Under the pieces are notes generated by a model that made no database searches, had not been told where the DNA came from, and saw only the letters and a list, made by a program, of their open reading frames with translations. From a virus, in IMG/VR virus record IMGVR_UViG_3300032213_001813, positions 62,001 to 126,000 of that record: a DNA stretch of 64,000 nucleotides. One strand, 5' to 3'. Positions within the stretch are counted from its first letter, which is position 1; each line of letters starts with the position of its first letter. Shown one piece after another: positions 16,188 to 42,036 of this stretch. The translations under genes and the position numbers were made by a program.

Positions 16188-16188
16188 T

Positions 16189-19475: not shown

Positions 19476-19476
19476 T

Positions 19477-20442: not shown

Positions 20443-20446
20443 AATT

Positions 20447-21067: not shown

Positions 21068-21078
21068 AAATTAGAAAG

Positions 21079-21609
21079 ATGAAATATTTTGATGAATTAA
21101 AAAGGTCAATGGAGTGGTTAGGTGAACAACCGAATACTATTTTTTTAGGACAAGCGGTTGAATACGCTGGAACTGCAATGACTAATACATTAAAGGATGT
21201 GAATCCTAACAAATTAATGGAAATGCCTGTTACTGAAGATATGCAAATGGGTATTACTAATGGGTTATCTATAAGTGGTTATGTACCAATTTCAATATAT
21301 CCTAGATGGAACTTTTTGTTGTTAGCTGTAAATCAATTGGTTAATCATTTAGATAAACTACCATTGATATCGGATTACAATACAAAGGTAATCATTAGAA
21401 CGGGTATTGGTTCGGAAAGACCGTTACATCCACAATTTCAACACATAGGTGATTATACTGAAGCATTTCAAAAAATGTTACCTAATGTTGAAGTTATTAG
21501 ATTGGATGAACCTGAACAAATTTTTGAAGCATATCAAAAGGCTTATAATAGAACGGATGGTAAATCAACTATTTTGGTTGAGTGGGGAGATTTTTACAAC
21601 GAAAAATAA
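21079..21609 (+). CDS. Thiamine-diphosphate enzyme, pyrimidine-binding half (E1-beta/transketolase-like)
   Basis: A 176-residue protein matching the pyrimidine domain: FLGQAVEYAGTAM, PVTEDMQMGITNGLSISGYVPI with the Glu that activates the aminopyrimidine, and a following IYPRWNFLLLAVNQLVNH helix. The C-terminal domain usual in E1-beta and transketolase is missing or reduced. It follows its ThDP-binding partner after 11 bases. Confidence 0.8.
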   Translation: MKYFDELKRSMEWLGEQPNTIFLGQAVEYAGTAMTNTLKDVNPNKLMEMPVTEDMQMGITNGLSISGYVPISIYPRWNFLLLAVNQLVNHLDKLPLISDYNTKVIIRTGIGSERPLHPQFQHIGDYTEAFQKMLPNVEVIRLDEPEQIFEAYQKAYNRTDGKSTILVEWGDFYNEK

Positions 21610-21612
21610 ATT

Positions 21613-22800
21613 ATGGAAAACAATTTTAAAATGCCTTTGATGACCGATAATATCTTTAGAGATGATATCAATAATCTAATAGAGTTTCTTCAACAAGACC
21701 CAATTCCAAGACTTACTAATGGTCCGAAGATTTTCGAATTTGAACAAAAATGGAATGAGTGGTTGGGTACAAAGTATAGTGTGATGGTAAATTCAGGAGC
21801 ATCTGCAAATGAATTAACTATGTTAGCATTAAGTTATATACATGGTAACGATGGAGAAATTATTGTACCACCATTGACTTGGATTTCTGATATATCATCT
21901 GTTGTATTTAGTGGATTCAAACCTGTGTTTTGTGATATCAATATGAAAAATCTTTCATTTGATATGGATAAGTTAATGGGTGTGATTACTGATAAAACAA
22001 AAGCAATATTTGTAACTCACGTTTTGGGATTAAATGCATTAACTGATGAGTTAATTGAATTATGTAATGAAAGGGGTATATTACTAATTGAAGATTGCTG
22101 TGAATCGCATGGAGCAACATTCAAAGGACAGAAAGTTGGTTCAATTGGATATGCTAGTAATTTTAGTTTTTACTTTGCACATCATATGAGTACTATTGAG
22201 GGTGGTATTATTAGTACAAATGATTACGAGTTTTATCAGATTCTTAGAGCATTACGTTCGCATGGAATGGCTAGGGAAATGAGTGATGAAACAATGAGAC
22301 AAAAGTATATTGATGATAACCCAATGTTATCCAAAGATTTTATTTTCATAACACCATCTCACAATTTTAGAACAACCGAAATAAATGCAGTATTGGGATT
22401 AAGTCAATTACCTAAGTTAGATATTCAAAATCTAAATCGTGTTAGGAATTTTAATCACTTTATTGGTAATATAGATTCTGATAAATTTATAACTGATTTG
22501 GATATCGAAGGACAATCCAATTACGCATTTATTTTGATTATGAAAGATAAATCATTTGAATTAAGAGATAAGATTGAAAATACTTTATCAGAGCATGGTA
22601 TTGAATTTAGAAGAGGATTATCTGGTGGTGGTAATCAATTATTACAACCATATATAAGAAAGAATTTTGATATCAATCACGTAGATTTTCCTAATATGGA
22701 ACATATACATAACTTTAGTTGGTATATTGGAAATCACCCACATTTAGAAATGGAAAAAATTGATTCATTGGTAAACCTATTAAACGAAACAGTAAAATAA
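21613..22800 (+). CDS. DegT-family PLP enzyme, ColD/RfbH-like sugar 3-dehydratase
   Basis: A 395-residue DegT-fold enzyme. The PLP-contacting EDCCESHG (160-167) is present, but the Schiff-base lysine is replaced by His in FAHHMSTIEGG (His190-His191). This His-for-Lys change is the mark of GDP-4-keto-6-deoxymannose 3-dehydratase (ColD) and related 3-dehydrases such as RfbH, which remove the 3-hydroxyl group to make 3,6-dideoxy sugars. Full length for the family. It lies next to the split ThDP enzyme, which would fit a branched deoxysugar route (inference). Confidence 0.86.
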   Translation: MENNFKMPLMTDNIFRDDINNLIEFLQQDPIPRLTNGPKIFEFEQKWNEWLGTKYSVMVNSGASANELTMLALSYIHGNDGEIIVPPLTWISDISSVVFSGFKPVFCDINMKNLSFDMDKLMGVITDKTKAIFVTHVLGLNALTDELIELCNERGILLIEDCCESHGATFKGQKVGSIGYASNFSFYFAHHMSTIEGGIISTNDYEFYQILRALRSHGMAREMSDETMRQKYIDDNPMLSKDFIFITPSHNFRTTEINAVLGLSQLPKLDIQNLNRVRNFNHFIGNIDSDKFITDLDIEGQSNYAFILIMKDKSFELRDKIENTLSEHGIEFRRGLSGGGNQLLQPYIRKNFDINHVDFPNMEHIHNFSWYIGNHPHLEMEKIDSLVNLLNETVK

Positions 22801-23660
22801 TGATAACTTTTCACAAATTAGGGGAATTGGGTAGGTTAGGTAATCAGTTATTTCAATATGCTGCATTAAAAGGATTGGGTTTACGGAACGGATATGAGGT
22901 AGTAATACCAAATCCACAAACAATGAATTGGCATGGGCAGACTTGTTTATTAGACCAATTTAACATTGAAGCTGGGTATTTGGATGACCAGAATATGTCC
23001 CAAATCCAATATATGTATTCAGAACCAAATTGGAATAAATATGACCCTACCTTTTTTGAAATACCCGATGGCAGTACAATCGAAGGTTTCTTTCAGAGTA
23101 CTTTTTATTTTGAAGGATTTGAAGAGCAAATTAAGAAAGAGCTAACGCCTAAATCGGAATTAGTTGAACAAAATAGAGAGTTCATAAATAAGATTAAATC
23201 TGAAAATGAAGGTTATGAAATAGTAAGTGTGCATGTTAGGAGAGGAGATAATATGACTAATGGTCAGACTGGTTTGATACAAGCATTTGAACCGGGTGGG
23301 ATGTATGAACAATACTTTAACAATGCTAAAAAAGTTTTTGATGGTAAGAATGTAAAGTTTTTAGTGTTTACTGGAGGACAGAGATTCAACGAAGATAATT
23401 CAACTGATGTAGAGTGGTGTAAAAACTTCTTCAAAGGAGATGAGTTTTTGTTTTCGGAAGGTCAGCCACAAATAGATGATTTTTGTAGAATTATGTTATG
23501 TGACCACAATATACTTTCGCACGCTAGTAGTTTTGGTTGGTGGGCAGCATATGTAAATCCAAATCCAAATAAAATAGTAGTAGCTCCTGAATACTACCAT
23601 CCAGATGAACCTGGTTTGAAAAGGGATAAGTTTTATCCAACGGAGTTTGTACAAGTTTAA
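22800..23660 (+). CDS. GT11-family (alpha-1,2-fucosyltransferase-like) glycosyltransferase
   Basis: A 286-residue GT11 enzyme. The N-terminal GRLGNQLFQYAALKGL, central VSVHVRRGDN (the HxRRGD donor-binding motif) and C-terminal SHASSFGWWAAYVNPNPNK are the three family blocks. It would transfer fucose or a related sugar from a GDP donor, consistent with the GDP-fucose synthase-like gene downstream. Starts on the last base of the preceding stop. Confidence 0.92.
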   Translation: MITFHKLGELGRLGNQLFQYAALKGLGLRNGYEVVIPNPQTMNWHGQTCLLDQFNIEAGYLDDQNMSQIQYMYSEPNWNKYDPTFFEIPDGSTIEGFFQSTFYFEGFEEQIKKELTPKSELVEQNREFINKIKSENEGYEIVSVHVRRGDNMTNGQTGLIQAFEPGGMYEQYFNNAKKVFDGKNVKFLVFTGGQRFNEDNSTDVEWCKNFFKGDEFLFSEGQPQIDDFCRIMLCDHNILSHASSFGWWAAYVNPNPNKIVVAPEYYHPDEPGLKRDKFYPTEFVQV

Positions 23661-23671
23661 CAAAATAAATT

Positions 23672-24373
23672 ATGAATTTAATATTTGATATAGGTTACAA
23701 TGAAGGAGAATTTACTGAAGTTTGTTTTAGTAAATATCCAAACGCAAGTGTGATAGCGGTAGAAGCTAATCCAAATTTATGTAGTATGTTGAAAAGAGAA
23801 TTTTCGGTAAATTACAACTTTTTATTACTAAACAATTTAGTATCCAATGTTGTAGGTGAAGAAATTGATTTTTATATATCTCACGAATCAACCGGAGTAT
23901 CTACGGCATCTACCGAATTTATGAATAATTCCCGATTTACAAAGGGTAGTAAAAATGTAGGAGCTAATTCGGTAAATTGGGCACCTCCTGTTAAAATAGA
24001 ATCCATAACAATTGATTCTATGATTGAAACATATGGTATACCTGATTTAATTAAAATTGATGTTGAGGGGTATGAATATACTGTGTTAAGTGGATTAACT
24101 CAAAAAGCTAGTGATATTTGCTTTGAGTGGCATGAGGAAGAAAAGGATAGTTTATACAAAATATTAGACCATTTACAAAGTATAGGTTACACACAATTTG
24201 GTGTAATTGGGTGGTTTGATGAAGGTGATGTATTTCCAAAAGCAACATTTTCTGATAAGGGAGACCCTTATTTAGAATACCCAAAAAACTTCTATACTTT
24301 GGAAGAATTAGAATTAGATAAATTAATACAACCAGAAAGAAGAGTAAATTACGGAATGTTTTTTGCACGATAA
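23672..24373 (+). CDS. FkbM-family methyltransferase
   Basis: A 233-residue SAM-dependent O-methyltransferase. LIFDIGYNEGEFTE is motif I, IAVEANPNLCSML the ribose-binding acidic strand, and IPDLIKIDVEGYEYTVLSG the typical FkbM core. Probably methylates a sugar hydroxyl group. Confidence 0.9.
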   Translation: MNLIFDIGYNEGEFTEVCFSKYPNASVIAVEANPNLCSMLKREFSVNYNFLLLNNLVSNVVGEEIDFYISHESTGVSTASTEFMNNSRFTKGSKNVGANSVNWAPPVKIESITIDSMIETYGIPDLIKIDVEGYEYTVLSGLTQKASDICFEWHEEEKDSLYKILDHLQSIGYTQFGVIGWFDEGDVFPKATFSDKGDPYLEYPKNFYTLEELELDKLIQPERRVNYGMFFAR

Positions 24374-24386
24374 ATAAAAACAAATT

Positions 24387-25340
24387 ATGAATATAGAACA
24401 ATTTAAAAACAAAAAGATTTTAATTACTGGAGCAGGTGGGTTTGTTGGCAGTAATTTAGTTACTGAATTAAAAACTCAAGGATTTACAAACCTATTAACA
24501 CCAGCAACATCCGAACTTAATTTAATTAACCAATCGGAAGTTGAAAAATATTTTGAAGAAAATAAACCCGAAGTTGTATTACACATTGCTGGTTTGGTTG
24601 GTGGTATTGCGGCTAACAAAGCTAGACCAGGTGAGTTCTTCTACAACAATGCAATGGTTGGTATTAACATAACCCATTTTGCTTATAAATACGGAGCAGA
24701 AAAAGTGGTATCCTTAGCAGCGGGTTGTGGTTATCCAAAAGAAATACCCGTACCATTTTCGGAAGATGATTTTTGGAATGGATTACCTGATATGAATTCT
24801 TATGGATATTCATTGGCTAAGAAAAACTTAATAGTACAGGGTTGGGCATATAAACAACAATATGGATTTAATACAACGGTATTGATTCCTGCTAACTTAT
24901 ACGGACCTTATGATAACTTCCATTTAGAAAATTCGCATGTTGTACCAGCGTTGATTAGAAAGTTTTTGGCAGCTAAAGAATCCAACTCACCAACTGTTGA
25001 AGTTTGGGGAACTGGTAAAGCAACTAGAGAATTCCTTTTTGTAGATGATACGGTTAGAGCAATCATAGATGCTATGGCTTGTGATGAAGTAGGTCCTTTT
25101 AATTTGGGAACTGGTGTTGAGACATCTATCAAAGAATTAAACGAAACCATAGCTAAATTAATAGGTTATGAAGGTGAGATTGTTTGGGATACAACTAGAC
25201 CGGATGGACAACCTAAGAGATTCTATGATATGAGTAAATTTAAAGAAACATTTGGTTATGTACCATCAACTCCATTAGAGGATGGATTGAAAAAAACAAT
25301 TGATTGGTATTTGAACAATAAAGAAACCGCTAGATTATAA
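24387..25340 (+). CDS. GDP-L-fucose synthase-like SDR (WcaG/Fcl type)
   Basis: A 317-residue SDR that closely follows GDP-fucose synthase: LITGAGGFVGSNL, the VGGIAANKARPGEFFY block, a Ser-rich AAGCGYP turn and YSLAKK with the catalytic Tyr-x3-Lys intact, then FLFVDDTVRA. It would epimerise and reduce a GDP-4-keto-6-deoxymannose-type substrate. A GDP-mannose dehydratase is not obvious in the window. Confidence 0.88.
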   Translation: MNIEQFKNKKILITGAGGFVGSNLVTELKTQGFTNLLTPATSELNLINQSEVEKYFEENKPEVVLHIAGLVGGIAANKARPGEFFYNNAMVGINITHFAYKYGAEKVVSLAAGCGYPKEIPVPFSEDDFWNGLPDMNSYGYSLAKKNLIVQGWAYKQQYGFNTTVLIPANLYGPYDNFHLENSHVVPALIRKFLAAKESNSPTVEVWGTGKATREFLFVDDTVRAIIDAMACDEVGPFNLGTGVETSIKELNETIAKLIGYEGEIVWDTTRPDGQPKRFYDMSKFKETFGYVPSTPLEDGLKKTIDWYLNNKETARL

Positions 25341-26131
25341 TGAAAGAAATTAATTTAAAATATGAGATACCACAAAATGTAACCAAAGCTAGAATAGATG
25401 TGGGCATGTGTATGACATCCCCACATGCGGCTTTATGGTTTCATAAATATGATAATATATGTGTTATTGGTGTAGAACCAAATCCATATAATTACGAAAG
25501 ATTATTTGATGGTGAAAACGGAATAAATGATTACAAAGTGGTAGTAAACGAAAATGCAGTAAAAATAAATAATGAAACTGTATGTAATTATGTTGAAAAG
25601 GGTAATTACTTTTTTCCAATTGAAGCCGCAATTGATAATGTGGATGAGGTTTGTACAAAAACATTCTATTGTACATCAATGTTAAATACAGGATGTTCAT
25701 CTTTGCATAAACCAATAGATGGTTCAGCTGGATTGAATGGTGTTACTACTGAAAGTGAGGTTGATGTAAATGTTATTTCATTGAAAATGGTATTAGATAA
25801 TTTTCCTTGGGATAGAATACCTGCAATAGAATTATTAAAAACCGATACTCAATCAAACGATTTGAATGTAATCAAAAGTTGTAAAGAGTATTTAAGTAAA
25901 ATATGTTTTATACATTCTGAATATTATGCACATTCTTCATACGATGGTGAAAAATCACAAAATGAATGCTTTGTAGAGTTTGACAATTATATGAAAGAAA
26001 ATAATTTTAGATGTTATTATAATAGTGCTACTGATGCTAGTTATATAAACAACGATTTATTAGAATACATATTTGCAAACAGCGTACTCAATGATGTGTT
26101 TGAATTTCAAAATGGTTATAATTTTATATAA
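25340..26131 (+). CDS. FkbM-like methyltransferase
   Basis: A 263-residue protein with ARIDVGMCMTSPHA and VIGVEPNPYNYERL, a FkbM-like SAM-binding arrangement, and LLKTDTQSNDLNVIKSC in place of the usual KIDVEGxExxVL. The Gly-rich loop is divergent, so activity is less sure than for the FkbM gene at 23672. Starts on the last base of the previous stop. Confidence 0.7.
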   Translation: MKEINLKYEIPQNVTKARIDVGMCMTSPHAALWFHKYDNICVIGVEPNPYNYERLFDGENGINDYKVVVNENAVKINNETVCNYVEKGNYFFPIEAAIDNVDEVCTKTFYCTSMLNTGCSSLHKPIDGSAGLNGVTTESEVDVNVISLKMVLDNFPWDRIPAIELLKTDTQSNDLNVIKSCKEYLSKICFIHSEYYAHSSYDGEKSQNECFVEFDNYMKENNFRCYYNSATDASYINNDLLEYIFANSVLNDVFEFQNGYNFI

Positions 26132-26134
26132 AAT

Positions 26135-27112
26135 ATGAAGAGAGTTTTAATTACAGGTGGAGCTGGTTTTATTGGTTCGCATCTTACAAAAAGATTAGTT
26201 AAAGAAGGTTACAATATTACGGTAATCGATAATTTGGAAAGAGGTAAGGCTGAATTTATATCAGATGTAATAAATGATATTAAATTTGTTCAAGCTGATT
26301 TAAGAGTTTGGGATGATGTAAAGGATTTGTTTTTAGATAAGGATATAATAATCCACTTAGCTTCTAAAGTTGGTGGTATTGGTACTTACTTATCTAAACC
26401 ATATGATGTGATGAACGCTAATATGGAAATGGACAGTAACGTATTAAGGGGTATCATTGAAAATAAAATCACTAAATACTTTTACGCATCATCAGCACAC
26501 ATTTATCCAAAGGAATTGCAAACGATAGCCGATTCTCCAATGATTAAAGAATCAGATGCATATCCAGCCAATCCAGAACTAACATATGGTTGGGCAAAGT
26601 TAATTGGTGAAAAGGCAATTGAATCTGCGGTAGTTGAGTATGATTGGATGAATGTAGCAATTGCAAGATTCATTGGTATCTACGGACCAAATCAAGATTT
26701 CCAATTAGAGACAGGTTCGGTTATTCCGGTGTTTTCACATAGAGGTGTGAAGTATCCCGAAGTACCATTTAGAATTTGGGGAACTGGAACTGAAACCCGT
26801 TCGTATTGTTTCATTGAAGATGCATTGGATTGTATTCAAAAAATGGTTGAAGCATTGGATACTAAGCAATTGGTTGGACCTTACAATGTTGGAAAGGGTG
26901 AGAGATGTACCATATCAGATATAGCAGAGACTGTTGTTGATATTAGTGGTAAATACATCCAAATAGAATACGATACAACAAAGAACACAGTAATTTGGGG
27001 ACAGTGGTGTGATTGTAGTTTAGTAAAAGAAGAGTTGGGATGGGAAGCAAAGACTTCGTTGAGAGAGGGATTGGAAGTAGTATATAACGATATAAAAAAT
27101 AGATTAGTATGA
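26135..27112 (+). CDS. NAD-dependent nucleotide-sugar epimerase/dehydratase
   Basis: A 325-residue extended SDR with TGGAGFIGSHL, SKVGGIGTYLSKP, an SSAHIYP turn and an intact YGWAK catalytic site, then RSYCFIEDALDCI. The overall pattern resembles GDP-mannose 3,5-epimerase-type enzymes, but substrate specificity cannot be set from sequence alone. Confidence 0.87.
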   Translation: MKRVLITGGAGFIGSHLTKRLVKEGYNITVIDNLERGKAEFISDVINDIKFVQADLRVWDDVKDLFLDKDIIIHLASKVGGIGTYLSKPYDVMNANMEMDSNVLRGIIENKITKYFYASSAHIYPKELQTIADSPMIKESDAYPANPELTYGWAKLIGEKAIESAVVEYDWMNVAIARFIGIYGPNQDFQLETGSVIPVFSHRGVKYPEVPFRIWGTGTETRSYCFIEDALDCIQKMVEALDTKQLVGPYNVGKGERCTISDIAETVVDISGKYIQIEYDTTKNTVIWGQWCDCSLVKEELGWEAKTSLREGLEVVYNDIKNRLV

Positions 27113-28053
27113 GCAAAGAAAAAGTTTTAATTACCGGCGGTGCTGGGTATTTAGGTTCTACATTAACGGAGCACCTATTAAATGAAGGTTATTCAGTAAC
27201 GGTATTGGATAATCTATCTTACAAACAATTATCACTATTACACCTTTTCAAAAGAGAAGGTTTTAAATTTGAGATGGGTGATGTAAGAAACAAAGAATTA
27301 CTACAAAAGTTAGTAGGGGAGCATGATGTGATTATTCCATTAGCTGCAATCGTTGGAATGCCGGCATGTAAAGCAAACCCTGATTTGACAATAGCAGTAA
27401 ATTATCAGCAGGTAGTTGATGTGATTGAAGTCCTAAGAGATAACCAAAAGTTAATCTTACCAAATACTAATTCACAATATGGTTCATCTGATTCAATCAT
27501 TACCGAAGACTCACCATTTAATCCATTATCATTATACGCAGAAACAAAATGTAATGCGGAGAATGCTTTATTAGCAAATGGAAATGGTGTATCATTGAGA
27601 TTGGCAACGGTGTTTGGTGTATCACCTCGAATGAGACAGGATTTGTTGGTAAATGATTTCGTTTATAAAAGTGCAGTAGATGGTTACTTAGTGTTGTTTG
27701 AAGGACACTTTAAGAGAAACTACATTCACGTTCAGGACATAGCTAGAACATTCCAATTCATCATTGAGAATTATGATGCTTGTAAGGGCGAGGCATTCAA
27801 CGTAGGATTATCAACTGCTAACTTATCAAAGTTGGAATTGGCAGAAAAGATTAAATCACATATACCATCTTTGGTTATTAAGGAAGATGATTTCAAAGAA
27901 GATTTTGATAAAAGAAACTATATCGTATCAAATGATAAGTTAGAGAGTAGAGGTTGGAAACCTATTTACGATTTAGATTATGGTATCAAACAATTGTTAG
28001 AAGCATACAAAGTAATTATTAAATATAACAACAAAAACTTTACAAATTTATAA
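27109..28053 (+). CDS. NAD-dependent nucleotide-sugar epimerase/dehydratase
   Basis: A 314-residue extended SDR with TGGAGYLGSTL, VLDNLSY, an intact YAETK catalytic site and NYIHVQDIARTF. It overlaps the preceding gene by four bases. Closest in style to UDP-glucose 4-epimerase-like enzymes of sugar clusters. Confidence 0.87.
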   Translation: MSKEKVLITGGAGYLGSTLTEHLLNEGYSVTVLDNLSYKQLSLLHLFKREGFKFEMGDVRNKELLQKLVGEHDVIIPLAAIVGMPACKANPDLTIAVNYQQVVDVIEVLRDNQKLILPNTNSQYGSSDSIITEDSPFNPLSLYAETKCNAENALLANGNGVSLRLATVFGVSPRMRQDLLVNDFVYKSAVDGYLVLFEGHFKRNYIHVQDIARTFQFIIENYDACKGEAFNVGLSTANLSKLELAEKIKSHIPSLVIKEDDFKEDFDKRNYIVSNDKLESRGWKPIYDLDYGIKQLLEAYKVIIKYNNKNFTNL

Positions 28054-28054
28054 T

Positions 28055-28459
28055 ATGGAAGAGAGAAAATATTTACCAACATTAAGTGAATTGATTGATA
28101 GATTATCTATTGTTCAATTAAAAGAAGTATTCATTACAGACCACAAAGCAGAATATGCTGAAGAGATTGCAGCAATTGTGCATGATATTCAATTGTATTT
28201 GGATGAGAGTACGGAAGCTGTAACTGCCGAAACTATTAGAGCAGTTGTAGTTCTTTCACAAATGAACTTACATATTTGGCATAATGAATCCAACTATCGT
28301 AAAGGAATCAGAGATGGTAACAACTTGGAATTAACACATGGATTAAATGGTATTCGTAACGTAGCTAAGAACAAAATCCAAGAGGTGAATGGTGGTAGAA
28401 AAGATTACAAAATTGATTGCTTAGCAGCAGAATTTAAAGATTGGGAAATTAGTTGGTAA
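28055..28459 (+). CDS. Hypothetical helical protein in the sugar block (134 aa)
   Basis: Helical protein with TLSELIDRLSIVQLKEVF near the N-terminus and ELTHGLNGIRNVAKNKI in the C-terminal half. I recall similar proteins beside sugar-kinase or transferase genes in other phages, but I cannot give a function. Tight spacing on both sides shows it is part of the operon. Confidence 0.65.
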   Translation: MEERKYLPTLSELIDRLSIVQLKEVFITDHKAEYAEEIAAIVHDIQLYLDESTEAVTAETIRAVVVLSQMNLHIWHNESNYRKGIRDGNNLELTHGLNGIRNVAKNKIQEVNGGRKDYKIDCLAAEFKDWEISW

Positions 28460-28460
28460 T

Positions 28461-29213
28461 ATGAATATATTAGTTATAGGAGATAGTTGTATTGATGTTT
28501 ATGTTTATGGTAAAGCAGATAGACTTTGCCCTGAAGCACCCGTTCCTGTGTTTATCCCTAAAAGGGAGACACGGACGGGTGGTATGGCAGCTAATGTATT
28601 TGAAAACATAGAATCATTGGAAGTGGACGTTCATTTAGTTACCAATGAGAATCCGGTAACTAAAACCCGATATGTGGAAGAAAAGACAAATCACCAAATC
28701 ATACGAATAGATTCCGAAACATCCGCTATCCCAAGAATTAAAAATTTGGATAAGATTAAGTTTGAGGATTATGATGCAGTTATTATATCGGACTACAATA
28801 AAGGGTTATTAACATATGAAGATATTCAGTTCATTTGTAAATCACATCCATCGGTTTTCATAGATACTAAAAAGATTGTCAATGAATATATGTTAGATGC
28901 CAAATTCATTAAGATAAACGAATACGAATATGCAAACAACATAGCAGCTGGACAGTATTTCAAAGAGTTCTATGATAAGTTAATTGTAACTATGAGTGGA
29001 AAGGGATGTAAGTATATGGAAACCGAATACAATGTAGATGAGGTGGAGGTTAGAGATAATAGTGGAGCTGGTGATACATTCATATCAGGTTTAGTAGTTG
29101 AGTGGTGTAGGAGTGGTGATATTGGTAAAGCAATATTATACGCAAACGAATGTGCTACGATAGTGGTACAACACAAAGGAGTAACAAAAGTAGGAAATTA
29201 TATTAAGAAATGA
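28461..29213 (+). CDS. PfkB-family sugar kinase, HldE/RfaE N-terminal-like
   Basis: A 250-residue kinase. The opening VIGDSCIDVYVYG and the Gly-rich GGMAANV strongly resemble the heptose-7-phosphate kinase domain of HldE, and RDNSGAGDTFISGL is the PfkB signature with the catalytic Asp. It is shorter than the usual kinase domain (about 315-330 residues), with the middle reduced. It may phosphorylate a heptose or similar sugar at C1, feeding the nucleotide-sugar enzymes. Confidence 0.88.
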   Translation: MNILVIGDSCIDVYVYGKADRLCPEAPVPVFIPKRETRTGGMAANVFENIESLEVDVHLVTNENPVTKTRYVEEKTNHQIIRIDSETSAIPRIKNLDKIKFEDYDAVIISDYNKGLLTYEDIQFICKSHPSVFIDTKKIVNEYMLDAKFIKINEYEYANNIAAGQYFKEFYDKLIVTMSGKGCKYMETEYNVDEVEVRDNSGAGDTFISGLVVEWCRSGDIGKAILYANECATIVVQHKGVTKVGNYIKK

Positions 29214-30442
29214 CAAAGAACCAACCAATAAGTTTTATTATACCCTGCCGAAATAACTTACCTTATTTAAAGCAGGCAGTTAGTAGTATTGAAAAACACT
29301 ATGGAACATATCACCACATCATTATATTAGATGATGCATCAACCGATGGTACTTGGGAGTGGATAAACTCGTTAGAGGGAGAACACTATACAAAATATCG
29401 TAATGAATCATCAGATAGAGTTGGACATACAGTTTTATATGATGTTGGTATTAAATTGGCAACAACACCGATTGTTACAATTTTACATTCGGATATGGTA
29501 GTTACTGAAAACTATGTTGGTAATATGTTAAAGCACCTAAAACCGATGACGGTAGTGAGTGCTACTCGTATAGAACCACCACTACACCCACCGGGACCCG
29601 AAAAGTATGTAATGAACTTTGGATTGGAAGTTGATGAATTTTTTGCAAAAGAAGATGCATTTACACACTTTGTTGCTACATTGGAAACTCAAAATGAAGG
29701 GTTGGTAACATATGGTATATTTGCACCTTGGATGTTATACAAAGAAGATTTTACATCAATAGGTGGACATGATTTATTGTTTGCACCTATGGAGTTGGAA
29801 GATTCGGATATATTCAATAGAATGGATTTAGCTGAATATAAGTTGGTACAAAGTAGAGATGCATTTGTATATCATATGACTTGTAGAGGTAGTAGATTCA
29901 AAGATGGTATTGAAATTGAAAGAGAGATACCACTACCGGATGGAACAATTTGGTACAAACCCAAAGATTCGGTAGAATATACAAAATTAAGAGAGAATAA
30001 GTTCAGAGAGTGGTGGAGAAAATGGCATACAAATGTGTTGCACGATGATAATATGCTACCAATAGTACCAAATAGATATGATACTACGTTTGTAATTATA
30101 AATTGTACACCACAATTACTTTCTGTATTAGAACCTTGGTGTGATAGAATATATGTAGATTGTGAATATAATTCCTATATTGAAAGTGAAAGTAAAGAAA
30201 CTATGTTTGATATATCTAAAAAAGTTTATTCGGTAAATGATGAATTGTTTGGAGATGTGGTAGTTAAATTTGATGGTTCTAAATTAACGCAAGAACATTA
30301 TCAGCAATTTATTATGAATCTGCCATTTGTAATTCAACAAAACGATTCAGTTGGTACATTTGATTGGGATATATTTGAAATAGAGATATATAAATTAACA
30401 ACAAAAGATATGATTAAGCCATTCTTTAAAAACGTATTTTAA
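29210..30442 (+). CDS. GT2-family glycosyltransferase with C-terminal extension
   Basis: A 410-residue protein. The first 270 residues form a family 2 GT-A domain: SFIIPCRNNLPYLKQAVSSI, ILDDASTDGTWEW, LHSDMVVTENY as the D-x-D region, and LEDSDIFNRM as the ED motif. The remaining about 140 residues are unrecognised and end in a helical tail. Overlaps the kinase gene by four bases. Confidence 0.85.
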   Translation: MTKNQPISFIIPCRNNLPYLKQAVSSIEKHYGTYHHIIILDDASTDGTWEWINSLEGEHYTKYRNESSDRVGHTVLYDVGIKLATTPIVTILHSDMVVTENYVGNMLKHLKPMTVVSATRIEPPLHPPGPEKYVMNFGLEVDEFFAKEDAFTHFVATLETQNEGLVTYGIFAPWMLYKEDFTSIGGHDLLFAPMELEDSDIFNRMDLAEYKLVQSRDAFVYHMTCRGSRFKDGIEIEREIPLPDGTIWYKPKDSVEYTKLRENKFREWWRKWHTNVLHDDNMLPIVPNRYDTTFVIINCTPQLLSVLEPWCDRIYVDCEYNSYIESESKETMFDISKKVYSVNDELFGDVVVKFDGSKLTQEHYQQFIMNLPFVIQQNDSVGTFDWDIFEIEIYKLTTKDMIKPFFKNVF

Positions 30443-30443
30443 A

Positions 30444-31337
30444 ATGAAAAAAAGAACATTAGTTTGCATACACGTAATGCCATCCGAATTAGAGATGTTT
30501 GAACGATTTATGCAACAATATCATAAAGCATTTCAATATTTGGATGAGAACGATGATGTGACACTTAAAGTAACACTTAACTTAAATCCAGAACTAACTG
30601 ATTGGGATAACAGTGAATTTAAGCAAGGATATTTTGTTGCAAGATTTGGTGTATTATTCAATGGTGTTAAAAATATAAATGAGGTAATATTAGATACATC
30701 ATGTTGGGGAACTACACAACAAAAAAGAGAAAGTTATAAGTTAGATTATGACCAATTTATATTTGTGGATACTGATATTTTGATGCATGAGCATATGTTA
30801 AAATATCAATTAAATGTATCTTATCAATTGGATGGTATTTACATATTATCACCATCATTACCAAAATGGTGGGATGATAGTTGGGAGGATTTATGCCATT
30901 CTGATTACAAAGATAAGCCATATGGTTATGCTATGGATGATAAAGGGGTTGCTGATAACACATTGGTTCAAGAAATAAAAGCTGTAACTGCAAGAGAAAT
31001 CGCAACTATTAAATTTGGATGTGGTATGCATACTCTATACTCTAAATCATTTTGGGAATTGGTTGGTATACCTGAATCATTTAAAGGTTATGGACCTGAA
31101 GATACATACGGAATGGCGGCATCAACGGTAGGTAATAAGTTGGGAGCTGGTATTAGACAATTTGTGTTAGATGGGGTGTATATTACCGAAGATTATTTTA
31201 ATAGAACTCCATCATATTCGGATAAAATTAAACCAATTGATAAAAAGAAAGAGTTTTATGATGCCGCACATGAATTGGGACAGGAAGAGGTAAAGAAATT
31301 TGTAGCAAAACTTATCGAAAATCAATCGAATAATTAA
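30444..31337 (+). CDS. Putative GT-A glycosyltransferase
   Basis: A 297-residue protein with FIFVDTDILMHEHML, a D-x-D site at the end of a strand as in GT-A enzymes, and YGPEDTYGM which resembles the galactosyltransferase-type GxxxED motif. N-terminal strand RTLVCIHVMPSELEMF. Last gene of the sugar block. Confidence 0.65.
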   Translation: MKKRTLVCIHVMPSELEMFERFMQQYHKAFQYLDENDDVTLKVTLNLNPELTDWDNSEFKQGYFVARFGVLFNGVKNINEVILDTSCWGTTQQKRESYKLDYDQFIFVDTDILMHEHMLKYQLNVSYQLDGIYILSPSLPKWWDDSWEDLCHSDYKDKPYGYAMDDKGVADNTLVQEIKAVTAREIATIKFGCGMHTLYSKSFWELVGIPESFKGYGPEDTYGMAASTVGNKLGAGIRQFVLDGVYITEDYFNRTPSYSDKIKPIDKKKEFYDAAHELGQEEVKKFVAKLIENQSNN

Positions 31338-31379: not shown

Positions 31380-32846
31380 ATGGGACAAAAGATATCAGAA
31401 AAACAAATGAAGGAGGAAATCCGTTCAGTAGTTAGACAAAATATAAAAGAAGTAACTACAAATGATTGGCACTACAAAGCAATCATGTCAATATGGGATA
31501 AGGGTGGTTCATTCACTCGTAAAAAAATTGGAGCAGTAATATGTGCTGACCCAAAAGCAGATAGAAGAGATGTTGAAGATGCATTAAGAAACTCTGGATA
31601 TGATGAAGTTACCAATGTTACTGATAGATTAAGAATTGAAGGTGTGATTAAAGAAGAAGATTCAATTCCCGGTGGTTTAGCAAAAGGAATGACTCTTAAT
31701 GATATTGCAGAGAAGCACGGAATGAGTGTTGATATGTTAGTAGCAGAATTTAAGAAAGGTATCCAAACCGAAATGGAACACACAACGGATAGAGAGATGG
31801 CTAAGGAAATCACAATGGACCACCTATTCGAAGACCCACAATATTATACAAAGTTAGCAACGGTAGAGGAATATGTTGATGATAAAGGTGTAGAACACGT
31901 TGCAGCAGCATTACCACAAACTGAAGAAGAGCCAATCAAAGAAGGAGAAGATTCCGAAGAAACACTAAGAGGTTTGAAAGAAATGGCAATGGGTGATTTG
32001 GAAAGAATTGCCGATTATGCAAATATGATTTTGGAAAGAATGGGAGAAGGACAGAACTTAGATTCTTGGATGTATTCTCAAATCACATTAGCAGTAGACC
32101 AATTAAATTCAGTACACGATACAATGGATGGTACTGATGGTAAGAAAGAAGAAGTGAAGGAAGGTAAGATAAACGAACTAACTGGAAACGAAAGGCAAAT
32201 TAAAAACGGAAATCCTAATAATATATTTTATATATTCTATAAAGGGCAATTTGCAGCAGAATATTGGGCAATGAATCCCAGTAATTTGTTTAGAATATAT
32301 TGGGATAAATTCAAAGTAAGAAGACCAGCTGGTTCTCAATTCAAATTAAATCCAGAATTTATAATTGTCCCTAAAAAAGAGTATGATAATAGTACATCAA
32401 ATCGTTACGCAAAATTAAAACCATATGTAGATGAGTTTTGGGATAAATTACAAAACGAATCGGTAAACGAAAACTTAGATAACTATTCTAAAGATGCAAT
32501 AACTGATATGATTGTAAACCTTAGTAGATATGAGGGTAATGAGAAATTAATTGCAGATTTAAAAAAAATACTAAAACAAAGAAGTTTAGGTAAACTAAAA
32601 AAAGAACAATCGGTAAATGAAGGAACTGAATCTGATATCATAGCTCAAATCAAAAATATTGCAAAGACTCATCAAAACAATATAGTAATAGACCCGAAGA
32701 GTGGTAAGAAAATGAGAGTAGATGCATTTTCAGCATCCGCAATCGCAACGGTATATGATGCATTAAGTGATTCTAATAAAGAAAAGTTCTTAGCATCTGG
32801 GTTATTGGGAATGCAACAAATGGCAATGAAATTACTAAAAAAATAA
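31380..32846 (+). CDS. DUF5661-containing multi-module protein, probable virion/prohead protein
   Basis: A 488-residue protein. Residues about 100-160 contain a DUF5661-like module (LNDIAEKHGMSVDMLVAEF, then EHTTDREMAKEITMDHL and DPQYYTKL), a domain I know from virion proteins of marine T4-like phages. Residues about 195-250 are a helical unit. After this come three modules, each preceded by a hydrophobic-Asn-Glu site: INE at 264-266, VNE at 362-364 and VNE at 412-414. These look like prohead-protease sites, so the product may be a polyprotein cut in the capsid (inference). Confidence 0.65.
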   Translation: MGQKISEKQMKEEIRSVVRQNIKEVTTNDWHYKAIMSIWDKGGSFTRKKIGAVICADPKADRRDVEDALRNSGYDEVTNVTDRLRIEGVIKEEDSIPGGLAKGMTLNDIAEKHGMSVDMLVAEFKKGIQTEMEHTTDREMAKEITMDHLFEDPQYYTKLATVEEYVDDKGVEHVAAALPQTEEEPIKEGEDSEETLRGLKEMAMGDLERIADYANMILERMGEGQNLDSWMYSQITLAVDQLNSVHDTMDGTDGKKEEVKEGKINELTGNERQIKNGNPNNIFYIFYKGQFAAEYWAMNPSNLFRIYWDKFKVRRPAGSQFKLNPEFIIVPKKEYDNSTSNRYAKLKPYVDEFWDKLQNESVNENLDNYSKDAITDMIVNLSRYEGNEKLIADLKKILKQRSLGKLKKEQSVNEGTESDIIAQIKNIAKTHQNNIVIDPKSGKKMRVDAFSASAIATVYDALSDSNKEKFLASGLLGMQQMAMKLLKK

Positions 32847-33210: not shown

Positions 33211-33744
33211 ATGATAAGTAGAACCCTATTTTTAGAAAGCAAGAAACTTCGAGTGTACGATTTTGATGATACTTTAGTATTTACAAACTCATTTATTTAC
33301 ATTACACACTCAAACGGAGGTAAATCCAAACTAACACCCGCACAATACGCAACTTATAATGCTAAGCCGGGTGATGTATATGACTTCTCTGATTTTGAGA
33401 AAGTTAAAAATCCAAAAATTATTAAGGGAGTATTTGAACTCCTAAAGAGAATGACTGAAAAGGATAGGGGTGATAGAGGTGTTTACATCTTAACCGCCCG
33501 AAGTGCTTACAAACCTGTCTACGATTTCATTCGCCAAAGTGGTATTAGAGGTGTTAATGTAATTGCATTGGGTGATAACAATCCTGAAAAGAAAGCAGAT
33601 TGGATAGAACAACAAATTAGAGATGAGGGATACGATGATGTGTTCTTTATCGATGATTCACTCAAAAACATTCATGCAGTACGAAACCGATTAAAGAAGT
33701 ATCCAAACGTAAAGCAAAAGATTCAGCACATAAAGCACGACTAG
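33211..33744 (+). CDS. HAD-superfamily phosphatase
   Basis: A 177-residue HAD-fold hydrolase: motif I RVYDFDDTL with the nucleophile Asp, motif II ILTARS, and motif IV VFFIDDS. The first 14 residues (MISRTLFLESKKLR) resemble the short leader, hydrophobic then Glu, of the following gene cluster but are a weaker match. HAD proteins of this type occur in phages as nucleotidases or 3'-phosphatases. It may belong to the same packaged set as its downstream neighbours (inference). Confidence 0.85.
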   Translation: MISRTLFLESKKLRVYDFDDTLVFTNSFIYITHSNGGKSKLTPAQYATYNAKPGDVYDFSDFEKVKNPKIIKGVFELLKRMTEKDRGDRGVYILTARSAYKPVYDFIRQSGIRGVNVIALGDNNPEKKADWIEQQIRDEGYDDVFFIDDSLKNIHAVRNRLKKYPNVKQKIQHIKHD

Positions 33745-33760
33745 TAGTTAAATTAAAAAG

Positions 33761-33773
33761 TTTATATTTATAT
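33761..33773 (+). promoter_or_regulatory. Candidate phage-specific promoter motif before the leader-gene cluster
   Basis: TTTATATTTATAT, 13 bases before the ATG at 33787. It appears to drive six tandem genes with a shared N-terminal leader. Confidence 0.55.
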
Positions 33774-33786
33774 TATATAACCAAAG

Positions 33787-34080
33787 ATGATGATAAAATT
33801 AACTCAAATATTAACTGAAGCAACCGATTTCAAAGTATATCACAAATCTTATACGGAAGCAATCCAAACCGCTAAAGAATACGCTTTGAAAAAAGGGTAT
33901 ATGGTAGATGATGATGATTCCTTTAGAAAGATTGGAATGGGTCCTCGTAAACCATCTGAAGGTAAGAGTGTTAGAGTTTCGGTAGAGTTGACAAAAGGTG
34001 ATAAACCAACAAAAAAACAATTACACATTCAGGTATACGGAATGAAAAACGGATACGAACTTAACTGCTATATAAACTAA
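33787..34080 (+). CDS. Small leader-bearing protein 1 (97 aa)
   Basis: First of six tandem genes starting MIKL and reaching a (L/I)-x-E by residue 10: here MMIKLTQILTEATD. The second ATG (33790) aligns best with the family. The body is a small lysine-rich alpha/beta domain with SVRVSVELTKGDKP and KKQLHIQVYG; not recognised. The leader resembles the capsid-targeting peptide of T4 internal proteins, so packaging and cleavage after the Glu are proposed. Confidence 0.7.
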   Translation: MMIKLTQILTEATDFKVYHKSYTEAIQTAKEYALKKGYMVDDDDSFRKIGMGPRKPSEGKSVRVSVELTKGDKPTKKQLHIQVYGMKNGYELNCYIN

Positions 34081-34562
34081 TGATAAAATTAAAAAACTTA
34101 TTGAACGAATCTACCGAATCGGATAAAGCAAAGGATGTATATAATAAAGCTGTTGATATTCAAAAAGAAATAGATTCATTGGAAAAACAAAAAAACTCTC
34201 TTGTAAATCAATATACTGATTTGCGTAAAGGTTTATTAAATGCCGAATATGATACATTGATTTCTAATGCAAAAAAACTATATCCAAACGCAAAAAGTGT
34301 GAAAAAAGTTGGAGATGGGGTATTGGTTCAATTACCAAAAGGTGAATTTATTGAAAAACCATTTGATGTAGCAACTAAACTTTCATCCGAAACAGGAACT
34401 TCTTCATCGGTAAAAGTTGCAGGTAAATATGACATGGCTAAACCAGGTTCATATTCTGCTACTGTATTTAATGGGTTTTTTGCAGAGTTTAGTGTTCCAT
34501 ATATTAAATCGGTAACAAATTTACCAATATTTGATGCAAGATTTCCTAAAAATATAAACTAA
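34080..34562 (+). CDS. Small leader-bearing protein 2 (160 aa)
   Basis: Begins MIKLKNLLNESTES, with the predicted cut after LNE. A coiled coil follows (about residues 20-50, DIQKEIDSLEKQKNSLVNQY), then a small beta domain with KKVGDGVLVQLPKGEFIEKP. Starts on the last base of the previous stop (TAATG), so translation is coupled through the cluster. Body not recognised. Confidence 0.7.
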   Translation: MIKLKNLLNESTESDKAKDVYNKAVDIQKEIDSLEKQKNSLVNQYTDLRKGLLNAEYDTLISNAKKLYPNAKSVKKVGDGVLVQLPKGEFIEKPFDVATKLSSETGTSSSVKVAGKYDMAKPGSYSATVFNGFFAEFSVPYIKSVTNLPIFDARFPKNIN

Positions 34563-34831
34563 TGATAAAATTAACACAACTAAACGAAGCATCAGAAGTT
34601 CAATTAACTGATTTACAGCCAACGCAACAAAAGCAAGTTAAAGCGTTTGAACAATTGTTAGGTGGTAAAGTAGATTCTATATTCGATGGTATTCACGGAT
34701 TTATCGTAGAAATAAAAGTAAGTGGAGGACACGGACCTTATAGATTTGATGCGGATGATTTGAAAAAATTAATAGCATTAAAAATTCGTTGGGTAGAGGC
34801 AGATGGTGATTATATTTCAGTAGCATTCTAG
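34562..34831 (+). CDS. Small leader-bearing protein 3 (89 aa)
   Basis: Begins MIKLTQLNEASE, a slightly shorter form of the shared leader. The body has VKAFEQLLGGKVDSIFDG and YRFDADDLKKLIALK, a compact alpha/beta domain with no recognised family. TAATG overlap with the previous gene. Confidence 0.68.
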   Translation: MIKLTQLNEASEVQLTDLQPTQQKQVKAFEQLLGGKVDSIFDGIHGFIVEIKVSGGHGPYRFDADDLKKLIALKIRWVEADGDYISVAF

Positions 34832-35367
34832 TGATAAAACTAAAATCCATATTGAGTGAAGACCTATTTGGAACATCTCTAAAAATGAAACCACACGAAG
34901 CCTTAATGGTTAAATCGGTGGTTTCTTTTATGATGGATAAGTATAATTTTACTGCAAAGATAATAATAAAGAAAAAGGATAAAGTGGGGATGATTGGTGA
35001 TATATCCTTAAACTCAAATTCGGTAGATGGGAATAAATTTTATTTACATTTCAATCCCAATCAATCCTATAAGAGAATTATCCAATCTATGATACACGAA
35101 TTAACTCACGTTAAGCAGGTATCCAAAAATGAGTTACTACCAAACAAAGATTATACTTCTATCTTATGGAAAGGTAAAGAGTATATAACAGCAAAGGATT
35201 ATGGTAAGTTAATGAAATCCGATATCCAAACATATATGAAACTGCCGTGGGAAGTTGAAGCAAACGGAAATATGAATAGTTTATATTCTACTTTTATTGG
35301 TTCTAAACATTGGAAAGAATTAAAAGGTAAAGATGATACAATGGATTATATAATTGATAATATTTAA
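34831..35367 (+). CDS. Leader-bearing zinc metallopeptidase-like protein
   Basis: A GTG start at 34831 is supported because it restores the shared leader MIKLKSILSED and overlaps the preceding TAG. The 178-residue protein carries HELTH at residues 89-93, the HExxH zinc site, within SMIHELTHVKQ, and a later PWEVEAN whose Glu can be the third ligand. It is a probable single-domain metalloprotease. If packaged and ejected, it would be a protease delivered to the host cell (inference). Confidence 0.78.
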   Translation: MIKLKSILSEDLFGTSLKMKPHEALMVKSVVSFMMDKYNFTAKIIIKKKDKVGMIGDISLNSNSVDGNKFYLHFNPNQSYKRIIQSMIHELTHVKQVSKNELLPNKDYTSILWKGKEYITAKDYGKLMKSDIQTYMKLPWEVEANGNMNSLYSTFIGSKHWKELKGKDDTMDYIIDNI

Positions 35368-35371
35368 TAGT

Positions 35372-35914
35372 ATGATAAAGTTAAAAGATTTACTTTTTGA
35401 AAGGGAGATTGATATTCCAAAAAACAAATGGACTCCTATAATGAGGTCAGAATTACCTGATTTCAAACAACAAATATACGATTTGATTTCAACTGCTTAT
35501 GCTCCCATAGGTGGACACTCAAATGTGAAAGATAAAGATGATTTGCCGGGTGAAGGTGATTTCTTCGATGTGATAGATGTAGATGGTGATGATGAGATAG
35601 ATGCAGCAACGGTAGCAAAACACAAATCAGCTGGTAAGAAGTTTGTGGCATTAGGACACGATGGTTCTTCGGCAGGTAAATCTGCAGCAGTAAATCATCA
35701 AGTAGATAAACTAAAAGGTAGTGGATACTTTGTAGAGGTATCTGGTAAGATGAAAGATATTCTAATGGGTAAGGGATTACAACCAGTTACCGATGAGAAG
35801 ACAGTTCGTAAGGCTCTACCTAACAAAGATATTAAGTGGAATGGTGATGGTACATACGATAGAAAGATTGGTGGTACTATACACACTAAAATGATGTTTG
35901 GAAAACCAAGATGA
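35372..35914 (+). CDS. Leader-bearing protein 5, paralogue of the next gene
   Basis: The start at 35372 (not an upstream in-frame ATG at 35354) gives MIKLKDLLFEREID, matching the family leader. The body resembles the next gene: an IYDLISTAYAP helix, FFDVIDVDGDDEIDAATV, a KSAGKKFVALG strand, GSGYFVEVSGKMKDIL, and a shared FGKPR ending. The fold looks like a GNAT-type alpha/beta domain but no acetyl-CoA loop is clear. Confidence 0.72.
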   Translation: MIKLKDLLFEREIDIPKNKWTPIMRSELPDFKQQIYDLISTAYAPIGGHSNVKDKDDLPGEGDFFDVIDVDGDDEIDAATVAKHKSAGKKFVALGHDGSSAGKSAAVNHQVDKLKGSGYFVEVSGKMKDILMGKGLQPVTDEKTVRKALPNKDIKWNGDGTYDRKIGGTIHTKMMFGKPR

Positions 35915-36462
35915 TAAAGTTAGGTAACATAATGAACGAATTGGAAATCCCCTCCGGAAAATGGGTGGATATGAAAATGAGTGATATTGATGCATCTGGA
36001 ATGAAACTTATTTGGTCAATGTACAAAACTGCATACAAAGGACAGGGTTTGGACTTATCAGCAGGTAGTGCTAGTGAAATGCAATCAAAGTACAAAGCAA
36101 TTATGTTAATAGATGTGGATGATGATAAACAACCTGATGCATTCATTGTATATAAAATAACACCATTTGGTAAAAAAATAGCATTACTTGCAGCTAATAT
36201 AAAGAAGCAAGATGCTAAACGAGCAGTAGTTAAGAAATCAATAGAATTAGCAAAGACAAGTGGTTGGTACATTGAGGCAAGTGCAAAGATGGAAGATATA
36301 ATGAATTCCGCAAATGCACCTGTTGTGAGAGATGAAGAAAAGATACTTGCTATATTAGGAAACGAAAAGAAACCCGAATTTGTAGGTGATGGATACTACA
36401 CTCGTTCACTATCTAAAGTGGATAAACGTATCACAAAAAGAATCTACGGAAAACCAAAGTAA
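35911..36462 (+). CDS. Leader-bearing protein 6, paralogue of the previous gene
   Basis: Begins MIKLGNIMNELEIP. The body parallels the preceding protein: IWSMYKTAYKG, IMLIDVDDDKQPDAFIVYK, GWYIEASAKMEDIM and a final YGKPK. ATGA overlap with its paralogue. The pair probably arose by tandem duplication and has diverged strongly. Function unknown. Confidence 0.72.
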   Translation: MIKLGNIMNELEIPSGKWVDMKMSDIDASGMKLIWSMYKTAYKGQGLDLSAGSASEMQSKYKAIMLIDVDDDKQPDAFIVYKITPFGKKIALLAANIKKQDAKRAVVKKSIELAKTSGWYIEASAKMEDIMNSANAPVVRDEEKILAILGNEKKPEFVGDGYYTRSLSKVDKRITKRIYGKPK

Positions 36463-40434: not shown

Positions 40435-42036
40435 ATGAAAGAATATAATGTTGCATTAAAAGCCGGAGTAGATTACGATGGATTTTGGGAAGATATGGAG
40501 ACCGAAAATGATGGACTCCTATACATTCCAAATCGTAAGGTAGAGTTTACAAATGAAAGACCTTCTTCTCTTCGTCAATGTTGGTATTTGCTGACAGATG
40601 AAGAAGCAGAATCACTAAGAGGAGATGAAAGAGTATTTTGTGTAGAGATACCACCCGAACATAGGGATGATATCGTAATGGGGTTTAGAGCAACTCAAAT
40701 CGCAGACTTTACCAAAACCACATCAGATAGTGGGGCATTTACCAATTGGGGTTTAATTCGTTCATCAAATACAACAAACGTTTATGGTACTGGTACAACT
40801 ACCGCATTAAACTACGATTACACATTGGATGGAACTGGTGTGGATGTGGTTATTCAGGATAGTGGATTACAAGTTGACCATCCCGAATTTACGGATGTCA
40901 ATAATAATACTAGAGTCCAACAACTAAATTGGGGTACATATAGTGGTGGGGCATTTACACAAAACGCAAATCATTATAGAGATTACGATGGACATGGAAC
41001 TCACGTAGCAGGTACTGCTTGTGGTAAAACATATGGTTGGGCAAAGGGAGCACAAATATATTCTCAAAAGTTAAGTGGATTAGAGGGAAGTGGTGATAGT
41101 GGTACTGGTATTAGTATTACTTACGCATTTGATGCTATTAAGACTTGGCATAGTTCTAAGGCGGGAGCTAGACCTACGGTGGTTAATATGAGTTGGGGAT
41201 ATGGTACATTTTACAATACCGTAACCTCATTAACTTATAGAGGTACAACATATTCGGATGCTAACACAACTGGAAACTCAAGTTATCGTTTAACTAATTA
41301 CGGATTATACCCATCTTCTGGTGCATATGGGGGATACACTTATGTTACCAATGTTAGAATAGGTTCGGTAGATACTGATATTGAAGAAATGATTGCGGCT
41401 GGAATTGTAGTTTGTATAGCAGCTGGTAATCGTTCTCATAAAATCGATGTTAGTGGTGGTTCAGATTATAATAACTATGTAAGTACCGACCAGGGTACTA
41501 AATACTACAATAGAGGTTCATCTCCTTATAGTGATAATGCATTTATGGTAGGTTCTATGGATAGTACTACATTTAGTGCAGAATTTGACCAAAAGGCAAC
41601 TTATTCCGAAACTGGACCAGGTGTTAATATTTGGGCACCTGGTACTGATATTATGAGTGCTACATCAAATACAAACGCATTTAGTGGACAGAATTATCAT
41701 TTGAACGCATCCTTTAAGCAAGTTAATATTAGTGGTACATCAATGGCATCACCGCAAGTAGCTGGAGTGGCTGCATTATATTTACAAAAATACCCAACAG
41801 CAACACCCTCATATACTAAATTGCAGTTACAATTGGCTACGGGTAATAAAATATACACTACGGGGGTGAGTATTGATTATTCGGATAGTAGAAGTTTATT
41901 AGGTTCATATCAATATGTATTATATAGTGCATTCCAAGCAGAATCATCAACTTCTCCATTGTATACTGTACAACCCGATTTGGTATTTGGAGGTACTAAC
42001 ATATCATTTGGTGGTGCTGGACTTAGTTTTGTATAG
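40435..42036 (+). CDS. Subtilisin-like serine protease (S8 family)
   Basis: A 533-residue protein with an intact catalytic triad: Asp142 in VIQDSGLQVDHP, His187 in DGHGTHVAGTA, and Ser436 in SGTSMASPQVAG; the oxyanion Asn is Asn332 in AAGN. There is no signal peptide, and residues 1-120 form an N-terminal region that is not a standard propeptide. The last 75 residues form a short beta tail. Placed straight after the fibre genes, it is probably a virion-associated protease that cleaves host surface proteins or processes fibres (inference). Confidence 0.92.
   Translation: MKEYNVALKAGVDYDGFWEDMETENDGLLYIPNRKVEFTNERPSSLRQCWYLLTDEEAESLRGDERVFCVEIPPEHRDDIVMGFRATQIADFTKTTSDSGAFTNWGLIRSSNTTNVYGTGTTTALNYDYTLDGTGVDVVIQDSGLQVDHPEFTDVNNNTRVQQLNWGTYSGGAFTQNANHYRDYDGHGTHVAGTACGKTYGWAKGAQIYSQKLSGLEGSGDSGTGISITYAFDAIKTWHSSKAGARPTVVNMSWGYGTFYNTVTSLTYRGTTYSDANTTGNSSYRLTNYGLYPSSGAYGGYTYVTNVRIGSVDTDIEEMIAAGIVVCIAAGNRSHKIDVSGGSDYNNYVSTDQGTKYYNRGSSPYSDNAFMVGSMDSTTFSAEFDQKATYSETGPGVNIWAPGTDIMSATSNTNAFSGQNYHLNASFKQVNISGTSMASPQVAGVAALYLQKYPTATPSYTKLQLQLATGNKIYTTGVSIDYSDSRSLLGSYQYVLYSAFQAESSTSPLYTVQPDLVFGGTNISFGGAGLSFV

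Follow-up and report, generated by a model that had tools for sequence, protein, structure and literature searches.

Why should six consecutive genes of a phage, with products mostly unrelated to one another, all open with nearly the same ten residues? The question is raised by positions 33790 to 36462 of the 64,000-nucleotide stretch analyzed here (the window), which covers positions 62001-126000 of the 188 kb linear viral record IMGVR_UViG_3300032213_001813. We propose that this shared start, the leader, is very probably a capsid-targeting propeptide of the kind found on T4 internal proteins, by which the proteins would be packaged, cut after a glutamate by an S77 prohead protease and their bodies (the cargo) delivered with the DNA. 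All six genes lie on the plus strand, begin with MIKL and reach a hydrophobic-x-Glu motif at residue 9-10 (the arrow follows the glutamate).

33790..34080, plus strand: leader gene 1, 96 aa, MIKLTQILTE↓ATDFKVYHKS; the mechanical open reading frame (ORF) begins one codon earlier, at 33787 (MMIKL)
34080..34562, plus strand: leader gene 2, 160 aa, MIKLKNLLNE↓STESDKAKD
34562..34831, plus strand: leader gene 3, 89 aa, leader of 9 residues, MIKLTQLNE↓ASEVQ
34831..35367, plus strand: leader gene 4, 178 aa, GTG start, MIKLKSILSE↓DLFGTS; HExxH motif (HELTH), putative zinc metallopeptidase, phrog_16532/10499
35372..35914, plus strand: leader gene 5, 180 aa, MIKLKDLLFE↓REIDIP; mechanical ORF from TTG at 35354; paralog of gene 6
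35911..36462, plus strand: leader gene 6, 183 aa, MIKLGNIMNE↓LEIPSG; predicted GNAT-like fold

The leader is kept as protein

A preliminary description of the locus had reported the six genes, the leader retained behind a GTG start, an HExxH motif in the array, and bodies that diverge except for one paralogous pair, and all of this holds: genes 5 and 6 are 31% identical, while the remaining bodies appear unrelated. The search that it proposed for more MIKL-leader genes elsewhere in the genome yielded one, a seventh leader gene about 70 kb away at genome position 168790, whose 10-mer (MIKLKSILSE) is identical to that of gene 4. From the first-residue frequencies of the genome's other genes, about 0.02 such genes per 250 would be expected by chance; seven are observed, six of them adjacent. 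Genome-wide, a degenerate DNA pattern gave six matches on the plus strand and none on the minus strand, and its mirror control gave none. One of the six matches, at genome 45371, lies within another ORF but in a different frame, and we dropped it as a chance hit.

At the five positions constant among six of the genes (M1, I2, K3, L4 and E10), each of the 24 pairwise codon differences is synonymous, leaving every residue the same, the M1 codon differences being scored as synonymous since one gene has a GTG start. The leader is therefore kept at the protein and not the DNA level. Additionally, in loci that were not selected by the leader, 32 of the 35 ORFs starting with MI(K/R)L have a glutamate at residue 9-11, and in all 32 a hydrophobic residue stands two positions before it. 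These results speak to the idea that what the genes share at their start is an element of DNA or RNA, involved in translation coupling or marking the end of a recombination cassette, with a functionless peptide. The array genes do abut or overlap tightly, with TAATGATAAA start-stop overlaps, and modules are exchanged through recombination, but the codons vary where the residues are constant, and the glutamate with its hydrophobic residue persists at internal junctions that have no start codon (described below); we regard this explanation as highly improbable.

AlphaFold2 (AF2) models of gene 4 (predicted local distance difference test, pLDDT, 87.8) and gene 6 (pLDDT 82) are confident apart mainly from residues 1-14 and 1-11, respectively. 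The leader is the only segment below pLDDT 50 and is modeled as a detached tail in both cases. An amphipathic N-terminal helix, targeting a membrane or a host complex in the infected cell and unrelated to heads, could be formed by the alternating Lys and Leu/Ile residues, and the gene 4 model draws a short low-confidence helix there. Such a helix leaves unexplained the invariant glutamate, the sharp end of conservation and the occurrence of the same site in polyproteins and in the capsid protein, and we give it next to no weight.

One leader on many unrelated bodies

A degenerate pattern for the leader matched at least 120 stretches of viral contigs. Pooled with other loci, these hold at least 259 unique leader ORFs, a few of them likely chance pattern matches, in at least 131 unrelated body clusters. 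An alignment of 122 representatives reads MIKLKxLLxE, with almost nothing conserved past Glu10; the search pattern accounts in part for its constant positions, but not for the abrupt end of conservation. Cargo families among the leader ORFs include ART-PolyVal (1.3e-27), Zeta toxin-like kinase, NT5C HAD, RimK, Mom, poly(A) polymerase/CCA enzyme, HD, RNase T, NUDIX, phosphoribosyltransferase, GNAT and lysozyme, and the individual functions are guesses from fold or family. Another recurrent domain, with a KxDG motif, had no Pfam family at the cut-off and no significant PDB match; it may be ligase-like, judging by that motif only. PADLOC matches among the cargo were few and scattered, and for this reason we make no direct claim of an anti-defense function. 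Our literature search found no paper describing the MIKLK leader.

Two further groups of leader genes were seen. In Microcystis phage Mel-JY01 (L011:10276-12718), three neighboring MIKL leader genes have related bodies starting with (I/T)ISDRVWH(L/V)T, which are perhaps ADP-ribosyltransferase-like, although the two that were tested had no Pfam match. At L168:6441-13942, several neighboring genes carry another style of leader (MSKTFSEYIKE, MNKTFKEYLKE, MDLIEKIEQVLIE), the first two of which are nearer to the T4 leader MKTYQEFIAE.

Cargo turnover and fused forms

The content of the array changes between strains. In locus L138, where the fourth gene is 98% identical, genes 2 and 3 are replaced by one unrelated 132-aa leader gene and the last paralog is missing. 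In L140, a homolog of the remote seventh gene adjoins the HExxH gene and is followed by more leader genes, and in L155 most of eight or nine genes in a row have such leaders; these include a HAD phosphatase, a tRNA nucleotidyltransferase, a P-loop kinase and a nucleotidyltransferase. This turnover between close strains is unlike that of core structural genes and counts against the view that the proteins are packaged and cut but serve as head-core or DNA-condensing components, not as effectors. So does the diversity of the bodies, which are unrelated enzymes (ART, tRNA nucleotidyltransferase, Zeta-type kinase, HAD, HD, NUDIX, Mom, GNAT). A structural role has its own points, in that T4 core and scaffold proteins are likewise protease substrates (T4 gp22 annotation), several small bodies give no enzymatic hint and a head-module protein of L226 has the leader MKKLKDLLKE; on balance we think it unlikely.

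The same domains also occur inside larger proteins. Specifically, the HExxH domain lies within proteins of about 1000 aa in L152, L154 and L141, that of L152 opening with a cytidylyltransferase-like domain, and in L167 the HExxH domain shares one 1494-aa protein with the domain of the remote seventh gene. In the fused forms MIKL is gone, while LNE↓DLFGTS, FLDE↓DLFGTS and KMTE↓DLRKW are retained. For five domains, a hydrophobic-x-Glu lies no more than 3 residues from the domain start, mostly exactly there, in about 45 of 50 fused or non-leader junctions, compared with 10% of random positions. Junctions within a domain share descent, so that the p-value overstates their independence, and a few of the "non-leader" cases have a GTG start or a variant leader that the pattern did not recognize; the site is nonetheless present in each of the five unrelated domains (KxDG 19/21, P-loop 7/7, seventh-gene 6/7, HExxH 9/11, gene-1 4/4). 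One domain alone is preceded by LLVE↓GGAYGHM, LIKE↓GGAYGHM, ILNE↓GGAYGHM, MISE↓GGAYGHM and IIAE↓GGLGGHM, among others. The window has a gene of this build as well.

31380..32846, plus strand: modular string gene, 488 aa, with a DUF5661 module and hydrophobic-x-Glu sites at module edges

Judging by its sequence, this gene is a string of modules, and comparison with L138 and L166 revealed modules inserted, lost or reordered, with the edges IKE↓, KINE↓, SINE↓ and SVNE↓. Multi-domain proteins of phages and conjugative elements that combine ART, peptidase and nucleic-acid enzyme domains, and are predicted to be injected, have been described as polyvalent proteins (Iyer et al., 2017; PMC5512222). 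The L152 and L167 proteins resemble them, but a site of the prohead-protease type stands at their domain edges and the same domains are also encoded singly, by leader genes, which is why the string looks like a precursor for cutting. The six window genes themselves appear single-domain, whereas a polyvalent protein has at least two disparate effector domains; the fused forms stand in L152, L154 and L167.

Prohead protease and capsid site in relatives

Genes for a T4-type tail sheath, tube and baseplate hub and for a phage DNA polymerase were found in the record. By sheath comparison, its nearest named relatives are Mel-JY01 and Flavobacterium phage immuto, and an uncultured 484 kb phage falls between these two; a scan for relatives using gene 6 found no close one, and a literature search found no paper on Mel-JY01 and none on virion proteomics of immuto. 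The phage is T4-like, and its host group, as far as the relatives tell, is probably Bacteroidota. In both named relatives the terminase, portal, prohead protease and capsid protein are all encoded upstream of the sheath, and both proteases belong to Pfam Peptidase_S77. Immuto, which is in culture, also has a leader gene (gp231, MIKLIDLLTE↓SLF), genes with MKKQILSE and genes of polyprotein-like build. The left end of the record lies within the tail fiber genes that precede the sheath, and we read the record as being without its whole head module. Its closest relatives, G001 and G002, are likewise without capsid protein and protease, G002 breaking off inside the terminase gene.

Where relatives with HExxH cargo are considered, an S77 protease is present in eight of ten and a capsid protein in the same eight; one S77-positive relative, G003, also bears this leader in a cargo array. 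The conserved protease motifs (GELDHP-like and SSRG) are retained. S77 was detected in 14 of 24 leader-bearing fragments vs. 4 of 24 control fragments (Fisher one-sided p=0.003), the compared fragments differing in length and gene content. Aligned with T4 gp23 Glu65, the established maturation site of T4, the relatives' capsid proteins show LLSE↓A, IVSE↓A, LISE↓A, LVSE↓A or LLDE↓A, and the aligned sites QLLSE↓A, QIVSE↓A and QLISE↓A correspond to FLTE65↓A of T4.

The window also encodes a subtilase near the fiber genes (40435-42036; Peptidase_S8, E 1.9e-30), a possible second maturation protease. It, or a host enzyme, might process the leader, leaving S77 incidental. The site, though, is that of gp21 and matches the capsid-protein maturation site of the same lineage, and S77 co-occurs with leader genes, which makes processing by another enzyme very unlikely despite its presence in the same genome.

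Probable capsid targeting of the T4 type and its proposed working

Phage T4 injects three internal proteins that have only a leader in common, each blocking a different restriction enzyme. Direct comparison showed that ipII and ipIII begin with MKTYQEFIAE↓A, equal in length to the leader described here and with the same hydrophobic-x-Glu. As in T4 IPI/IPII/IPIII, a leader of about 10 residues ends in this motif, the bodies are otherwise little alike, the genes are polymorphic, the cargo is small and single-domain, and an S77 prohead protease is present (here in relatives). The differences are the leader itself (MIKLKxLLxE vs. MKTYQEFIAE), the arrays of six or more genes, the more than 100 cargo bodies including many enzymes, and the same domains in strings with linker sites. 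Internal proteins of T-even phages, sharing only the leader, are injected and inhibit GmrSD enzymes (PMC12373910; PMC3012670). T4 Alt is a virion ADP-ribosyltransferase injected with the DNA (PMC5512222); some leader cargo of relatives is likewise ART-PolyVal (L118, L157), but of another ART clade, and the six window genes include no ART by sequence. In the giant phage SPN3US, head-protein propeptides are cut at A-x-E by gp245 (PMC10052503). N-terminal head propeptides and a prohead protease cutting after x-x-Glu would be common to both systems, whereas the SPN3US propeptides have 20-254 residues and no short leader shared by many cargo genes is reported.

Several observations weigh against a capsid-targeting propeptide, beyond the survey positions set by the search pattern and the unequal fragments of the S77 comparison. 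A search of this genome with PF03420 gave no match, and the record has no head gene that we could find, be it for terminase, portal, capsid protein or prohead protease; since the protease is missing together with the other three, we did not count its absence as contrary evidence. The subtilase is there, and a few non-leader homologs are without the site. Homology to MKTYQEFIAE was not found either, as only the methionine, the length, the hydrophobic P3 and the Glu at P1 agree; the leader would thus work like the T4 family, while descent from the T4 leader is unsupported. T4-style targeting with prohead-protease cleavage, as suggested in the preliminary description, is even so by far the best supported reading, given S77 and a T4-type major capsid protein in relatives with the same cargo, the matching capsid maturation site, the fusion-junction sites, the cargo swapping and the more than 100 unrelated bodies. 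The system is also larger than was proposed there. Its kind is already known, being defined by the T4 internal proteins; what this system adds is its leader, the scale of its cargo and an equivalence between tagged genes and cut strings.

Under T4-style targeting, tagged proteins would join the prohead core during assembly, and the S77 (gp21-type) protease of the phage would cut after the glutamate, leaving the folded cargo domain free in the head, from where it would pass into the next host cell along with the DNA. Packaging, cleavage, ejection and action in the host are what we infer, the ejection and effector role by analogy with T4; what the sequences show is the leader with its protein-level selection and sharp end, its reuse on diverse cargo, the cargo turnover, the junction sites and, in relatives, the protease and the matching capsid site. 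The different cargoes may be early countermeasures or host modifiers, acting for example by ADP-ribosylation, RNA end processing, acetylation or proteolysis. Strings of the same domains, with linkers bearing the cut site, would be an alternative format, and new cargo could be acquired when a leader or a site comes to stand before a domain. More tentatively, a large group of T4-like phages, most of them uncultured, may use the leader as a delivery tag, and polyvalent-type strings and tagged single genes would then be two interchangeable formats of one protease-released arsenal; a virion-borne kit for RNA repair (tRNA nucleotidyltransferase, kinase and HAD phosphatase, ligase-like KxDG domain) might belong to it and be delivered ahead of any phage gene expression.

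If the proposal is true, hundreds of hypothetical phage genes become predicted injected proteins that a simple pattern can recognize, and a handle is gained on the countermeasures to bacterial defense in the first minute. Sequence would then be enough to recognize more than 100 kinds of protein as possibly injected by such phages together with the DNA. The junction evidence further suggests how some polyvalent proteins are handled, namely by being cut into domains in the head, and a short, apparently portable packaging tag for such phages would be a useful tool.

Array members, upstream genes and other observations

Searches of Pfam and PHROGs gave no family for genes 1, 2, 3, 5 and 6. Homologs of gene 1 have the leaders MIKLKSLLTE and MIKLKSLLKE, or are fused with the junctions SVNE↓A, SVTE↓A and SVIKE↓A, and homologs of gene 3 (L061, L231, L166) keep the leader and its glutamate. 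In gene 4, the motif HELTHVKQ is nearly invariant among homologs, and the best PDB fold neighbors of the model are zincin-type peptidases, at a non-significant E of about 0.05 or more. The best matches listed by Foldseek for the gene 6 model are GNAT acetyltransferases (E 1.8e-4), from which the GNAT-like fold is predicted. Two features lie just upstream of the array.

33211..33744, plus strand: HAD-fold phosphatase-like gene, 177 aa, divergent leader MISRTLFLE↓SKKLRVYDFDDTL; phrog_415 polynucleotide kinase 1.3e-7
33763..33772, plus strand: TATATTTATA promoter-like motif, upstream of the array; also at 31343 (before the 488-aa gene) and 36489

The HAD gene had earlier been credited with a weaker leader, in line with what we found. 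Its homologs carry the canonical leaders MIKLLDILLE↓ (L054), MIKLKDLLLE↓ (L105) and MIKLKRLLQE↓ (L128), with a leaderless MGKVLRVFDFDDTL form in L139, and because of these MIKL leaders the gene at 33211 is considered cargo too. The motif TATATTTATA has 18 copies on the plus strand of the genome and none on the minus strand, mostly 4-76 bases before genes, and precedes the tail sheath, fiber genes, the 488-aa string and the first leader gene. It is a candidate phage promoter, late or general, whose placement is consistent with, and no proof of, shared transcription of cargo and structural genes.

Directly before the cargo genes, about 20 kb of the window (11477-31337) resemble glycosyltransferase, sugar epimerase and methyltransferase genes. 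On the minus strand at genome 170583-173843 (L007:8583-11843), a 1086-aa ORF similar to a TonB-dependent outer-membrane receptor sits within a block of minus-strand genes and could be a moron, a host gene or an assembly join. Finally, four genes at genome 133378-136400 and 140666-143758, with GGGTAGW near the start, are similar to flavin-dependent tryptophan halogenases.

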